From positions 1 through 64,000 of the IMG/VR virus record IMGVR_UViG_3300025133_009446: a DNA stretch of 64,000 nt. One strand, given 5' to 3'. Below, piece by piece: positions 50,253-61,384 of the stretch. The DNA comes from a virus. Both the position numbers and the translations under genes were made by a program. Positions within the stretch are counted from its first letter, which is position 1; every line of letters starts with the position of its first letter. Under the pieces are notes generated by a model. The model saw only the letters and a list, made by a program, of their open reading frames with translations, made no database searches and had not been told where the DNA came from.

Positions 50253-51212
50253 TCATCCTTTGTAGATTTTTAATGCCCAAAAGGCAGGATTTTCTATCTC
50301 TTTTTGCAGATCTGTTAATAACGCAGCGTGCAGCAATTCTCTATATTGTTCAGGATTAGAATTTCTTTTATCCCCCAAATTATCTAAATATATTGGCTTT
50401 GTAATGTAGTCAAAGTGCAATTTATTAGAAGCCTCTCCGCATATTTTATATAATTCTACATCACAATCACTAAACAAGTCAACTATTTTATTTATTGCAA
50501 AATCTCCATATTGTCTATATCCGTGCAAAAGGTATAAATCAAGAGAAGCTGGACCTGGGAAAAGGTGCACTTGTATACAAGGCTCGTCCTTTTGATACAT
50601 AAACTTCTTTAACTGCTTAAATGTACCTAAATCGTTTTTTATATGTTCAATCGCAGACTGAGACATGAGAAAGTTTATATTTGTTGGGATATCAAATATT
50701 GCATCACTATCTAGATTTGCCTGTTCGAAGCTTACATTAATATCCTTTTCCTTACCCCAGCTAATGTTGTCATGCCACTTAGGAGATTGATATATATCCA
50801 AGCCCTTATATGAAGTTATAATGCCATTAGACCAATTCTGCAGTTTCTTGCAATACCCACCGGTACCGCAACCAATATCCAATATATTGACTTCTCCTAA
50901 ATTTTTCTTTATATCACCCCAAGGCAAGTTCATCCAAAACATGTCACCCATAGCTCTGCTAGGTGATGGGGTACCCTTTATTTTGTTCCAAAAATTATTA
51001 AATTTTTCTTTTTCTAAAGTAAAGTCTGTGCTCAACAATTTATCTGTTAGCAATTTGTTGCTTATATGATTCCACAACAAATACAAAGTTTTTTCTGTTG
51101 AAGATAGTGAAGGACTATCTCCATTTATAGAGTGAATGGATGTCGACATGTCATCCTGTAGTCCGACACTATAATTTTCAATTAAAAAATTAAAATTGTT
51201 ATATTCTTTCAT
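50253..51212 (-). CDS. SAM-dependent methyltransferase
   Basis: The 319-residue protein has the class I motif EVNILDIGCGTGGYCKKLQN, then GLDIYQSPKWHD for the adenosine side, and NFLMSQSAIEHIKND in motif IV. The N-terminal 100 residues are extra and Asn-rich with no signature. It overlaps the GT4-GT2 fusion gene by 14 nt. It probably methylates a sugar or a carrier-linked glycan; the acceptor is unknown. Confidence 0.85.
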   Translation of the reverse strand: MKEYNNFNFLIENYSVGLQDDMSTSIHSINGDSPSLSSTEKTLYLLWNHISNKLLTDKLLSTDFTLEKEKFNNFWNKIKGTPSPSRAMGDMFWMNLPWGDIKKNLGEVNILDIGCGTGGYCKKLQNWSNGIITSYKGLDIYQSPKWHDNISWGKEKDINVSFEQANLDSDAIFDIPTNINFLMSQSAIEHIKNDLGTFKQLKKFMYQKDEPCIQVHLFPGPASLDLYLLHGYRQYGDFAINKIVDLFSDCDVELYKICGEASNKLHFDYITKPIYLDNLGDKRNSNPEQYRELLHAALLTDLQKEIENPAFWALKIYKG

Positions 51213-56199: not shown

Positions 56200-56645
56200 T
56201 ATCCACCTTCTTGTGTATTAGTATTCTTTGGATCCAGTGTAACTGTTGTTTTTTCATTTGTCAATGTTTTTTTTGCGCTGGTGCGTGTGCGGGTTGCTAC
56301 AGTTTTTCTAGTGGCTTTTCTAGTGGTTTTTCTAGTGGTTTTTCTAGGAGCATTTACAGTGCGAGTTGTATTTTCATTGTGTCCTTTGGTTGTCCACACC
56401 CACTGCCCTGTTTGACTATTCGGTTGGTGGCTATTAACCTTGGAAGTGCCTGATATTAATCGTTCAGCTTCAATACCTGCACCTAAAAGCACCCTTCTGA
56501 CTGTTGATGCATCAATTTCTATTCGCTTGCTAGCGCTTTTAGCTCCATCATTATATTTAATATTAGCAGTAACCGTTACCGTGCCAGCTTTTTTATCCAC
56601 TGTCCATTTTAAATAACTATCATATTTTCCTTGTTTATAGCTCAT
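56199..56645 (-). CDS. Unknown protein with basic repetitive C-terminus, 148 aa
   Basis: ATG at 56645 follows TATAGGAGATCTTAC. The first 95 residues (MSYKQGKYDSYLKWTVDKKA, then KRIEIDASTVRRVLLGAG) make a compact beta/alpha domain without a known motif. Residues about 100-130 are extremely basic and repeat RKTT-type units, encoded by four 12-bp units. Such tails bind DNA or RNA non-specifically. It lies between the PD-(D/E)XK nuclease and the metallopeptidase-like gene and could coat or condense DNA, but no function is known. Confidence 0.65.
   Translation of the reverse strand: MSYKQGKYDSYLKWTVDKKAGTVTVTANIKYNDGAKSASKRIEIDASTVRRVLLGAGIEAERLISGTSKVNSHQPNSQTGQWVWTTKGHNENTTRTVNAPRKTTRKTTRKATRKTVATRTRTSAKKTLTNEKTTVTLDPKNTNTQEGG
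56303..56349 (-). repeat. 12-bp tandem repeat, about four units
   Basis: Units of TTTTTCTAGTGG (plus-strand reading), one with a single change and the last partial, encode the RKTT/RKAT array of the basic tail of the 148-residue protein. Copy number may vary by slippage. Confidence 0.8.
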
Positions 56646-57319
56646 GTAAGATCTCCTATATTTTCTAATTTATTATATACCGTGGGACTTAGCTTTTTCA
56701 CTAATTGTCTGTTATATAAGTAGTAATGTTCAAAGCAATTAGCAAAATACTCTCGCAAGCTAGTGGCGCCATATGGAGACACAAACAAACCAGAAGTAAA
56801 GCTTTGTAATATATTATACCCAATTTCACGATACAACAGCTCATCAAACTTTTCTGAATATTCAGTATTATAAAAGTCTGTCAAATTTACTTTATACCCT
56901 TCATAATCTAATATTTGATATAGTCTTTTTCTTTTCCCAAGAAATTCCAACTCTATAACGTTATCTCCATATAGATCTTCTCCATATATTTCTTCGGCTG
57001 AATGAGCGATTTCATGTACAATATCATTAACCATGTCATTCGCGTCATCTTGCGCGTTTGAAACATAAATTGCGCCATCTTTATAGGCAGCGTTGGTTTG
57101 ATTTTGAACAAATATATCAAAATGTCCGACATATATCGCATCTATTAAATAAAAGAAGTGCTTCGGTACCGTTTCTTCAATTTTTTTCAGCACTACTTCT
57201 ATATCAACAGTTTCCGGAAGATCGTCCTTAAGAAAAACTAATATGTTGTTAAATAAAAATTTTTCTTTCCTTTCTCTTAAAGCTTTAATAGCAGATTTTT
57301 TAATATAATCTATTCTCAT
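56642..57319 (-). CDS. HExxH metallopeptidase-like protein, 225 aa
   Basis: The protein contains VNDIVHEIAHSAEEIYGEDL, an HExxH zinc motif, with SLREYFANCFEHYYL downstream where a third ligand (Glu) could lie. The rest is mixed alpha/beta with no family I can name with certainty. Its short N-terminus and 20-nt overlap with the preceding gene suggest coupled translation. A protease for phage or host protein maturation is possible. T4 prohead protease is a serine enzyme, so this is not that. Function unproven. Confidence 0.72.
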   Translation of the reverse strand: MRIDYIKKSAIKALRERKEKFLFNNILVFLKDDLPETVDIEVVLKKIEETVPKHFFYLIDAIYVGHFDIFVQNQTNAAYKDGAIYVSNAQDDANDMVNDIVHEIAHSAEEIYGEDLYGDNVIELEFLGKRKRLYQILDYEGYKVNLTDFYNTEYSEKFDELLYREIGYNILQSFTSGLFVSPYGATSLREYFANCFEHYYLYNRQLVKKLSPTVYNKLENIGDLT

Positions 57320-57675: not shown

Positions 57676-59001
57676 TTAAAGTATTTTTGCTGCTAACGTA
57701 GCTACTTTAGATCTTTCACCCTTAGTTAAGGTGATATGTCCTGCTAACTCATAATATTTAAATTTTTCAATTGCATAAGTTAGTCCATTAGAGGTTTCGT
57801 CAACATATGCATTATCGATTTGCTCGACGTCGCCTGTTAATATAATTTTAGTATTTTCCCCCACTCTCGTAATGATTGTTTTAAGTTCATGAGCAGACAA
57901 ATTTTGTGCCTCATCAATGATTATATAAGAATCTGCAAGAGAACGCCCCCTTATATAAGTTAAAGCTTCAATTTCGATCGTACCGTTCTCTGTATACATT
58001 TTAAGTGTTTCTTTATCATTCCCCATTAGAAATCGTAAATTGTCTTGTATTGGCATCAACCATGGGCTCATTTTTTCTTCCATGGAACCAGGCAAATAAC
58101 CAATATCTTTACCCATAGGCTGAATAGGTCTGGAAACTACCAATCTTTTATATCTAGCTGCTGTCGTCTCTTCAACAACTTGTTCTAATCCGGCAGCTAT
58201 AGCCATTAATGTTTTGCCGCTCCCAGCTTTTCCAACCAACGTCACCACATGCACATTGGGATCCATCAACAAATCTAATGCAAATGTCTGCTCTTTATTT
58301 CTTGCTCTAATTCCCCATATTTTTTTCTTAGAATTGATTCCATTCACTCTTTGTAATGGAGATGTATAATTTATAAATCTTGCCAGCGCAGTTTTTTTAT
58401 CATTAGAGTTTGACACCAACATCATATATTGATTAGGAAATAATTTAATATCCTCCTTTTCTAAGAAAATATCTTCCCCACTATAAAATTGATCAATTGT
58501 TTGATCATCTACCAAGTGAGTTACGTATCCATCATATATATGAGTTGTGTCCTTTACAACTTGATTGGTTATATAATCCTCGGTTAAGAGTCCCAAAGCA
58601 TCACACTTAACGCGCATGTTGATGTCGCGTGAAACTACAATTACCTTTCTATTTAAACTTAATCTTTTTTCCGCCATGGCGACACCAATGATTTCATTAT
58701 CTGGTATTTTATAATCAATATCTTCAGGTAAATTTGCAAACTTAAAATTTTTAACTGTTATTAAACCTTTACCTTTATCTATTCTCACTCCTTTGAATAA
58801 ACTTCCTTTTTCTCTGAGAGAGTCTAATTTACGAATAACATTTCTAGCATTAGATCCAACACTATCTTGTCTTTTTTTATGATTGTCTACTTCCTCTAAA
58901 ACTTTAAATGGAATTACAATATCGTTATTTCCATATGAGGTTAAAGAGTTCGCGTCAGTTAGATATACGCTGGTGTCGAGAACATATATTTTTTTAGCCA
59001 T
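57676..59001 (-). CDS. phoH: PhoH-type ATPase with N-terminal PIN domain
   Basis: ATG at 59001 has AAGGGAAATAC upstream. The 441-residue protein has a PIN-domain start (KIYVLDTSVYLTDANSLTSY, then FKVLEEVDNHKKRQDSVGSN) and a PhoH P-loop (VVTLVGKAGSGKTLMAIAAG) with Walker B YIIIDEAQNLSAHELK. Two-domain PIN-PhoH proteins occur in bacteria such as Bacillus YlaK-type and in marine phages. They are thought to unwind and cut RNA, but the phage role (often called phosphate-related) is untested. Transcription leads into the metallopeptidase-like gene. Confidence 0.9.
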   Translation of the reverse strand: MAKKIYVLDTSVYLTDANSLTSYGNNDIVIPFKVLEEVDNHKKRQDSVGSNARNVIRKLDSLREKGSLFKGVRIDKGKGLITVKNFKFANLPEDIDYKIPDNEIIGVAMAEKRLSLNRKVIVVSRDINMRVKCDALGLLTEDYITNQVVKDTTHIYDGYVTHLVDDQTIDQFYSGEDIFLEKEDIKLFPNQYMMLVSNSNDKKTALARFINYTSPLQRVNGINSKKKIWGIRARNKEQTFALDLLMDPNVHVVTLVGKAGSGKTLMAIAAGLEQVVEETTAARYKRLVVSRPIQPMGKDIGYLPGSMEEKMSPWLMPIQDNLRFLMGNDKETLKMYTENGTIEIEALTYIRGRSLADSYIIIDEAQNLSAHELKTIITRVGENTKIILTGDVEQIDNAYVDETSNGLTYAIEKFKYYELAGHITLTKGERSKVATLAAKIL

Positions 59002-59136: not shown

Positions 59137-59874
59137 ATGAAATACAAAAAAACAATGTTTCTATTAATAATTTTCATTTTTTCTCACATCAGCAGCTGTA
59201 GTAATCCTCCTTTTTCTCACCATGTTAGTCGCCATGATGAATATATGCAAAGCAATCTCCCAAGAGAAGCTTTTATAAAAATAAAATCTAAAATCACAAT
59301 TAAAAATTGTGTAGCTGGAATATGCTCTAGACGTACATTGTCATATGCAGGATCTGGTTTTATTGTTGGTGTTGGAGAAAGAGGATCCTTTGTCATGACT
59401 GCTGCACATGTATGCAGAGATCGTGATGAGGACGCTAACAGACTTTTAGAACATAAAATAGTCGATCTAGATGGTAACGAACATGTTGGAATAACACTGG
59501 CTTATGATATCCAAGCCGATATTTGCCTTATGTATGCAACTGGATTGACAAACAAAAGGGCATTAACAGTTTCCCCAAATGAACCAAAACCTGGAGATAG
59601 ATTATATAATCTAGCAGCGCCTGCAGGTATATTTGATATCAATATGATGCCAATATTAGAAGGTTTTTACAATGGAGTTAGTAGCGGTGCAGCTGTATAT
59701 AGCATTCCTGCTGCTGGTGGAAGTTCTGGATCTCCAGTATTAAACAGTCACATGCAAATAGTAGGATTGATCCACTCTGTACATGTAGCTTTTCCCATGA
59801 TTACAATTGGACCAACTTATGAAGAAATAAAGCACTTCATTGAAACTAATGTAGAAAAATATTCAAATTTATAG
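59137..59874 (+). CDS. Secreted trypsin-like serine protease, lipoprotein
   Basis: The only plus-strand gene. ATG at 59137 has a near-consensus AGGAGG 10 nt upstream. The 245-residue protein has a positively charged start (MKYKKT), a hydrophobic run and lipobox ISSC with Cys21, so it should be lipidated and exported, the +2 Ser favouring the outer membrane. The trypsin-like triad can be read: His91 in VMTAAHVC, Asp128 in QADICLMY and Ser197 in GGSSGSP. The orientation, own ribosome site and possible promoter fit a moron gene that alters the infected host's envelope. The target is unknown. The stop meets the minus-strand stop of the next gene with no gap. Confidence 0.85.
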   Translation: MKYKKTMFLLIIFIFSHISSCSNPPFSHHVSRHDEYMQSNLPREAFIKIKSKITIKNCVAGICSRRTLSYAGSGFIVGVGERGSFVMTAAHVCRDRDEDANRLLEHKIVDLDGNEHVGITLAYDIQADICLMYATGLTNKRALTVSPNEPKPGDRLYNLAAPAGIFDINMMPILEGFYNGVSSGAAVYSIPAAGGSSGSPVLNSHMQIVGLIHSVHVAFPMITIGPTYEEIKHFIETNVEKYSNL

Positions 59875-60225: not shown

Positions 60226-60431
60226 TATATAGTGCTCACTTCTTTAGGAGATATAAATTGCAATTTACTAGTTTTATTTCTAGGATCAGTTAGTGTTAAA
60301 TACTGATTTGTGTTCCAACTTAAATAATCAATATCTTCAATAAGCCATGTTCTATTTCGAAACAACACTCTGCTTCCTACGTAAGCTTTTCTACCTCTTT
60401 TATCAATTGTGAATCTTCTTGTTGTTTTCAT
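60225..60431 (-). CDS. Small basic unknown protein, 68 aa
   Basis: ATG at 60431, overlapping the preceding gene by 29 nt. The 68-residue protein (MKTTRRFTIDKRGRKAYVGS, then LFRNRTWLIEDIDYLSW) has a basic N-terminus and the short beta pattern of an SH3-like barrel, seen in small nucleic-acid or ribosome-binding proteins. No firm family. Confidence 0.6.
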   Translation of the reverse strand: MKTTRRFTIDKRGRKAYVGSRVLFRNRTWLIEDIDYLSWNTNQYLTLTDPRNKTSKLQFISPKEVSTI

Positions 60432-60660
60432 TTTTCTTTCCTCGGCTCTTTTTTTTATTAGATTTTGGTTTTTCTTCTGGTTTAACCCAGAGTTTTAATC
60501 TGAATATTTCTCTATTTGAAGATGTGCCTCTCTTAATCTTTAAATGAATGGTTTCTGCATCATCATCATAAGTCATAGCTGCATCTCTTGCCTCCTCGTA
60601 TGTATTAAACATACCAACGTTAACCCACTTTTTATTATTTGATTCATCAGATTTATTCAT
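60403..60660 (-). CDS. Small protein with basic tail, 85 aa
   Basis: ATG at 60660 follows TATAGGAGATCAT and starts 17 nt after the tmRNA end. The N-terminal part (KKWVNVGMFNTYEEARDAAM) has the strand-helix pattern of small AP2/SPOR-like domains, and the C-terminus is very basic (KSNKKKSRGKKNENNKK). It may bind nucleic acid. Function unknown. Confidence 0.65.
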   Translation of the reverse strand: MNKSDESNNKKWVNVGMFNTYEEARDAAMTYDDDAETIHLKIKRGTSSNREIFRLKLWVKPEEKPKSNKKKSRGKKNENNKKIHN

Positions 60661-60677
60661 ATGATCTCCTATATCAG

Positions 60678-60991
60678 TGGAAGTGTCGGGAGTCGAACCC
60701 GAGTCCGAAAAACCTCAAAAACAACGTCATTCACAAGATTAGTCAGTTATTTGAACTCTGACAAACTCAAACCCTGCATGCGCGTACCACCAGTTTTGTG
60801 ACTTTCTTGAAAAACTGGAAAGCTGCCTAGCTTCCTTAATGGAGTGCTAGAAACTCCAAATTACGCAGCTAAGGCGTAATCAAGTTCAACATTATCGTTG
60901 GCTTTTATAAAAATTGAGTATTTTTACTGTGCTACCCACACAGCCTTGCACGTTTATTTTATCCATTCTCCGTCGAAACCTTTTCACCCCC
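60678..60991 (-). ncRNA. ssrA: tmRNA (transfer-messenger RNA), one-piece
   Basis: A complete, non-permuted tmRNA of 314 nt. The 5' end GGGGGUG (60991-60985) pairs with CACUUCC (60685-60679), including G3-U70, the alanyl-tRNA synthetase identity pair. After the 5' acceptor comes the conserved GGUUUCGACGG. The 3' side has a T-arm (UCGGG, loop UUCGACU, CCCGA). The tag reading frame (60902-60861) starts with GCC and reads ANDNVELDYALAA then UAA; its LAA end is the ClpXP-type signal. A GUGC...GCAC hairpin (about 60953-60931) fits pseudoknot 1. The CCA end is not encoded (CTG instead), so host nucleotidyltransferase must add it. tmRNA with SmpB frees stalled ribosomes and tags the product for degradation. 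No smpB is seen here. Phage tmRNAs are rare. Confidence 0.93.
60861..60902 (-). other. tmRNA tag-peptide reading frame
   Basis: Thirteen codons plus UAA inside the tmRNA encode ANDNVELDYALAA. The resume codon GCC (Ala) follows an A/U-rich stretch, as in known tmRNAs, and the hydrophobic LAA ending is the usual protease signal. Confidence 0.9.
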
Positions 60992-61005
60992 ATTATTGCT
61001 ATTAG

Positions 61006-61023
61006 TATATACAATTGTATATA
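61006..61023. promoter_or_regulatory. 18-bp perfect palindrome upstream of the tmRNA
   Basis: TATATACAATTGTATATA reads the same on both strands. It lies between the HTH gene stop and the tmRNA 5' end, 14 nt from it, where the promoter of the tmRNA should be. It may be an operator or simply an AT-rich promoter element. Confidence 0.55.
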
Positions 61024-61033
61024 AGATGTTAAG

Positions 61034-61384
61034 CTATTTTTCGAAATAATCTTCAACTTTAAATTTTCTTAAGAGTTTTCGCAATTCTCTTGGCGCTATT
61101 CCTAAGAATCTTGCTGCTTCTCTTTTGGATTTTGTCGCGCTTAGGGCATACTTTAATAATGCATCTTGTACAATTTCTTTTGCACTATACCATATTGGCA
61201 TGCCATATAATTTATTGCCAAATACTTTAGAAGCTAATTCAAGCTTGAGTGCAATTGCTTCCTCAAGTGTCAAAGAATTTAACATTACCTCAAATTCTTC
61301 GTTACTTTTCAGATCGTTGCGGAGTTTCTTTGCGATGCTATAATTTTTATTTTTCCCAGAGACTTTTCTTTTTTTCCAGACCAC
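61034..61384 (-). CDS. Small HTH protein, Fis-like C-terminal domain
   Basis: Start is GTG at 61384 with GAGAGAAAA upstream; no ATG is close. The 116-residue product has a basic N-terminus (KKRKVSGKNKNYSIAKKLRN) and a C-terminal helix-turn-helix: LLKYALSATKSKREAARFLG then IAPRELRKLLRKF, as in the Fis/NtrC C-terminal HTH_8. It probably binds DNA. Two perfect palindromes (61425-61440 and 61006-61023) flank the gene and are candidate sites. Position before the tmRNA suggests local control, but nothing is proven. NtrC-type ATPase parts are absent. Confidence 0.75.
   Translation of the reverse strand: MVWKKRKVSGKNKNYSIAKKLRNDLKSNEEFEVMLNSLTLEEAIALKLELASKVFGNKLYGMPIWYSAKEIVQDALLKYALSATKSKREAARFLGIAPRELRKLLRKFKVEDYFEK

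Follow-up and report, generated by a model that had tools for sequence, protein, structure and literature searches.

An alanine-type one-piece tmRNA gene in a marine phage lineage and tag-less tRNA-like RNAs at the same locus

Phage-borne tmRNA (ssrA) genes have been known for some time: an earlier survey counted about ten (PMC4131195), and tmRNA has been reported in 402 of 18,146 phage genomes, with 133 unique structures (PMC9004378). At some 2% of phage genomes the kind is already well known. One-piece examples occur in the mycobacteriophages Bxz1, Wildcat and Kumao, in Streptomyces phage Mildred21, in Bacillus phage G and in huge phages, for which both tmRNA and SmpB have been reported (PMC7162821). 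Marine phages account for only 2.5% of the one-piece forms; Methylophilales phage Melnitz and other marine two-piece phages carry a complete ssrA gene in an operon, which in Melnitz is permuted and accompanied by a glutamine riboswitch (PMC9004378). A further form, restricted to a tRNA-like domain (TLD) without tag, is that of mycobacteriophage DS6A; two papers, citing Mao et al. 2009, report that it strongly inhibits tmRNA, perhaps by titrating SmpB (PMC4131195, PMC11915505). What a phage gains from a tmRNA is a standing question.

Here we describe such a gene in a 64,000-nucleotide stretch of viral DNA (the window), the first part of IMG/VR record IMGVR_UViG_3300025133_009446, an uncultured linear viral fragment of 75,427 bp. 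Features are on the minus strand unless marked (+). The mature RNA, without CCA, spans exactly the positions given in the preliminary description, 60678-60991, from G1 to the discriminator A, where the RF00023 covariance model scores 108.5 bits (E 1.9e-41; gathering cut-off 47) and ARAGORN calls a standard, not permuted, tmRNA with the tag ANDNVELDYALAA*. This bears out the tmRNA call of that description, made before any database search; no other Rfam family exceeded its cut-off in the window. Like the one-piece genes cited above it is phage-borne, but it can be aligned with them over at most about 30-50 nt of DNA, lies in a marine myovirus and has a tag of its own; BLASTN against isolated phages and plasmids returned short T-arm matches only. 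Unlike the Melnitz gene it is in one piece, a form unusual for its habitat; for phage tmRNA as a whole, "rare", as the preliminary description put it, stands for about 2% of phage genomes.

The 5′ acceptor strand GGGGGUG (60985-60991) pairs over 7 bp with the 3′ strand CACUUCC (60679-60685, with U70 and U69), forming the G3-U70 alanine identity pair that had been recognised beforehand and, in addition, a second wobble, G4-U69. The discriminator A (60678) is followed by CTG (60675-60677) where CCA would be. CCA is therefore not encoded and must be added; this is not a lineage trait, since 30 of 39 lineage molecules encode it. The T-arm is canonical (UCGGG-UUCGACU-CCCGA), the D-like region contains AGGUUUCGACGG and the conserved 5′ sequence is present. 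The tag reading frame with its UAA stop (60861-60902) is complete, and the tag ends in a ClpXP-type ALAA degron directly before the stop. The acceptor, T-arm, 5′ sequence, tag frame and lack of an encoded CCA had all been read correctly from the letters at the outset.

Four pseudoknots are present. PK1 (CUGUG/CACAG and GGGUA/UACUC; 60916-60943) lies 5′ of the tag and shows two-sided changes in relatives, and 3′ of the tag are PK2 (GGAGU/ACUCC and CUAGC/GCUAG; 60827-60857), PK3 (CUUUC/GAAAG and CAGUUUU/AAAACUG; 60791-60822) and PK4 (UUUGA/UCAAA and GUCAG/CUGAC; 60742-60771). The 129 nt after the tag hold three H-type pseudoknots, a number reached in none of 2000 dinucleotide shuffles of that segment (maximum two, in 26 shuffles). 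The minimum free energy of the RNA by itself is only weakly unusual (z -1.7). In relatives, covariation is seen in PK1 and in the stems.

Other classes fit the gene poorly. A permuted two-piece tmRNA is contradicted by the RF04321 score of 35.2 bits, below the cut-off of 47, and by the unpermuted order found with both ARAGORN and RF00023, as originally proposed; RF04321 matches in phages (59 bits in G006) are cross-hits, which overlap one-piece genes, and the model also matches E. coli. The mRNA-like domain and full length exclude a TLD-only RNA of the DS6A type. The score, the G3-U70 pair and discriminator A, the ALAA tag, the four pseudoknots and the gene order place the window gene in the one-piece RF00023 class, and its identification as an unpermuted, alanine-type, phage-encoded tmRNA is supported. 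Taken alone, it is an ordinary tmRNA.

The gene lies, as first described, between two protein genes of the same strand. About 43 nt upstream is a small gene (61034-61384) designated Fis-like, with a Pfam HTH_8 match below cut-off (E 9.5e-4), which synteny shows to be the conserved 5′ neighbour of the tmRNA slot, and 17 nt downstream a small ORF (60403-60660) with no family match. Further downstream, a phoH-like gene (57676-59001; phrog_2765, E 2e-114) serves as the 3′ anchor of the tmRNA slot and as tree marker. Most genes of the record, and all neighbours of the tmRNA except one, are on the minus strand; the exception, a trypsin-like serine protease gene (59137-59874 (+); PF13365), is a conserved neighbour of phoH both in the window clade and in those of its relatives that lack tmRNA. 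The gene spacing fits the dense operon of the preliminary description, but a possible sigma-70-type promoter, TTAACA-17-TATACT (61004-61032), ends 12 nt before the RNA, so that independent transcription is possible; such sites occur in the region at chance frequency and the position is suggestive only. The record also encodes a PD-(D/E)XK nuclease, glycosyltransferases, a baseplate wedge protein and a nucleotide-sugar dehydrogenase, a content consistent with a contractile-tailed phage (myovirus).

Scans with two PhoH proteins retrieved well over 100 related viral loci, contigs of the window population included. Among 83 related records searched with RF00023, 38 carry a full-length tmRNA and nine an 82-83 nt match above cut-off; matches of 11-38 bits, below cut-off, were not counted and coincide with ARAGORN tRNA genes where compared. 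In about 30 marine relatives a tmRNA sits in this slot, after the Fis-like gene and ahead of phoH. The gene order p62317 - p61526 - Fis-like - [slot] - phoH - p57300 - p56642 - exonuclease is kept in the relatives inspected, where covered and recognisable, and the synteny of the slot persists at PhoH identities down to about 60%. The recurrence of the gene in one slot indicates that the window tmRNA is not a stray copy. In a sister clade the slot is empty, with zero RF00023 matches in the 12 of its records searched, which shows that the tmRNA is dispensable; in tree rows L038, L039, L054, L170 and L173, absence of the RNA refers to ARAGORN alone or to no search. SmpB, reported for huge phages, was not recognised in the incomplete 75,427-bp record, where smpB had been proposed as a check, nor in any of 50 related records, of which four measure 185-190 kb; ten of ten bacterial control genomes were positive. 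Full-length genes vary in detail: a 316-kb related viral record (G455) has one far from phoH (135596-135999, locus L191), with acceptor pairs 4 and 5 different and G3-U70 kept, and three others (L113, L192, L193) have the T-loop GGCAGUA rather than UUCGANU, with stem, acceptor and tag intact.

Comparison of the full-length genes points to constraint on both tag and structure. For the window clade, pS is 0.46 and pN 0.058 over nine distinct tags (pN/pS about 0.13); judged from these substitutions, the tag is under strong purifying selection. In 11 window-clade tmRNAs a structure of 38 pairs, with PK1 included, is 96.9% paired. Fifteen of its pairs change on both sides, where shuffles give 8.4 and none of 500 is as high, and it stands far above versions of itself slid by one to three columns. 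Across 39 distinct lineage molecules, two-sided changes occur at acceptor pairs 4, 5 and 6, whereas all 39 have G-U at pair 3 and A as the discriminator. G3-U70 is an established identity element for charging by alanyl-tRNA synthetase (AlaRS), and this invariant combination is what such charging requires.

The nine shorter matches are TLD-only RNAs of 82-83 nt, without tag, in the slot of the full-length tmRNA (L062:3958-4039, L087:2080-2161, L066:2715-2796, L070:1676-1758, L072:3057-3139, L138:2538-2619, L148:4699-4780, L172:3090-3171 and L117:1501-1582; an example is GGGGGUGGUUUGGGUUUCGACUGGGAUUAAAACCUGCAAUGGCAGUCUCAGGACCACGGUUCGACUCCGUGCACCUCCACCA). Where the contig shows the Fis-like gene, they follow it directly. 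They have an intact acceptor with G3-U70, a T-arm and an encoded CCA, and contain GGUUUCGAC (GGAAUUCGAC in two). The entire mRNA-like domain is replaced by a short hairpin, itself not kept in every sequence; over eight distinct sequences the fold is 98.2% paired, with two-sided changes in three helices. By description they resemble the tag-less domain of DS6A, a form from which the full-length window gene differs.

The PhoH tree places the nine TLD-only records in a single clade of 18 with full support, where they are interspersed with nine full-length genes whose tags are of the type AN(D/E)A(D/N)Y(G/D)LALAA, and the starred branches force at least two changes between forms. The sequences 5′ of the RNA can be aligned between the two forms, and both have TGTCAA a short distance ahead of the RNA (L062, L066, L070, L072, L080, L082, L087, L138-L140, L144, L148, L172), which might be a promoter or a signal for processing; the 3′ sequences also seem similar in some pairs (L072 or L148 with L144 or L139). 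Because the TLDs have diverged between the two forms, a recent deletion does not account for the shorter one. These RNAs, in close relatives belonging to another clade, cannot tag, and tagging is thus not a universal need of the lineage; the window's own clade has full-length genes only. We found no description of a conserved slot with either a full or a TLD-only tmRNA in the open-access literature searched.

The reading that we favour, with a probability of about 0.7, is that the window gene is a functional alanyl-tmRNA which would borrow the SmpB, AlaRS and proteases of the host to recycle stalled ribosomes in infected cells. Gene anatomy, the conserved slot, covarying folds, the invariant alanine identity, selection on the tag and the lack of a detectable smpB speak for it; the empty slot of the sister clade and the tag-less RNAs of close relatives speak against it. 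The RNA would be made during infection, from its own promoter or by read-through, its ends cut by host RNases and CCA added by a host enzyme, and the G3-U70 pair would let host AlaRS charge it. SmpB and EF-Tu, also from the host, would then carry it to ribosomes halted on mRNAs that are broken or lack a stop codon, where translation would resume at GCC and append A plus ANDNVELDYALAA; the ALAA end would direct the tagged product to ClpXP-type proteases, and ribosomes and amino acids would go back to phage synthesis. We infer these steps, from transcription to proteolysis, by analogy with the tmRNA family, and the benefit is probably the recycling of ribosomes together with the clearance of truncated proteins.

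The locus might instead take over host trans-translation, its TLD-only alleles competing for SmpB, AlaRS and stalled ribosomes and its full-length alleles out-competing the host tmRNA and swapping its tag, which would change the set of degraded proteins or spare ribosomes for the phage. That TLD-only alleles cannot tag, together with the inhibition reported for the similar DS6A RNA in the papers cited above, makes this the chief competing explanation when the whole locus is considered. It draws further on the nine TLD-only RNAs in the same slot, with G3-U70 intact, CCA encoded and a covarying fold, and on the 5′ and sometimes 3′ flanks common to both forms. The exclusively full-length genes of the window clade and their selected ALAA tag are nevertheless more easily reconciled with rescue and degradation than with a sponge, and we consider interference rather unlikely. 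Far less probable is a passive passenger without a role, whether a host ssrA copy acquired by chance or what is left of an attachment site. Integration at host ssrA is common, and in some mycobacteriophages ssrA matches lie beside the integrase genes, but no tyrosine integrase (PF00589) was found in the record or in nine related records, and the gene is whole rather than the 3′ fragment of an attachment site; synteny, covariation and selection on tag and structure across deep divergence largely refute this reading. An assembly artefact or cellular contamination, conceivable for an uncultured linear fragment, has hardly any probability left, since the identical arrangement recurs in four further contigs, which stem from separate datasets, and, diverged, in dozens more, and since PhoH and baseplate genes lie on the same record.

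Beyond the favoured rescue function of the window gene, we tentatively envisage that a single orthologous locus, in a marine myovirus lineage that is widespread, has alternative alleles, namely a full tmRNA whose degradation tag is under selection, an antagonist of trans-translation consisting of the TLD only, or nothing; the locus might act as a host-takeover device tuned to ribosome rescue in the host and not as a spare housekeeping gene. Related phages differ at this one locus in that they can tag, have at most tRNA-like functions, or lack the RNA. Such a natural allele series, combined with measurable selection on the tag, may allow interference to be told apart from rescue and degradation.

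The host was approached through the 5′ domain of the gene, for which we used a sequence-only model because RNAalifold gave an implausible nested fold on the 5′ alignment. The best bacterial score of the phage model, 51.3 bits, was for a bacterial tmRNA, in one piece, of the phylum to which a deltaproteobacterial MAG belongs; 200 sampled Pseudomonadota gave at most 41.6 bits. This best-scoring tmRNA (locus L214, tag ANDNVEYAVAA) shares TATAAATGCCAACGATAATGTTGA around the resume codon with the window gene but is longer (366 nt) and has a shorter tag. With only two phyla sampled, the match is a lead and at most a hint at the host. Some permuted alphaproteobacterial tmRNAs share the exact TTATAAATGCCAACGATAATGTTG; an alphaproteobacterial origin was set aside because one-piece deltaproteobacterial ones share it too and score higher.

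Several other features of the record were noted. A small protein gene conserved downstream of phoH (56642-57319) has a HEIAH zinc-protease-like motif, with weak Pfam metallopeptidase matches below cut-off. ARAGORN reports a tRNA-Tyr(ata) at 51098-51182 (+), which overlaps an opposite-strand ORF, has no Rfam tRNA support and is probably false. Between about 35 and 55 kb the window contains many genes with a probable role in sugar modification (nucleotide-sugar dehydrogenase, glycosyltransferases, methyltransferases). Beyond the window, at record positions 68128-69153 (L008:4128-5153), an adenylosuccinate synthetase-like gene of 341 aa belongs to a PurZ-type family in PHROGs and scores higher with the NCBIfam PurA than with the PurZ model, both below cut-off; it may serve modified-base or purine metabolism.
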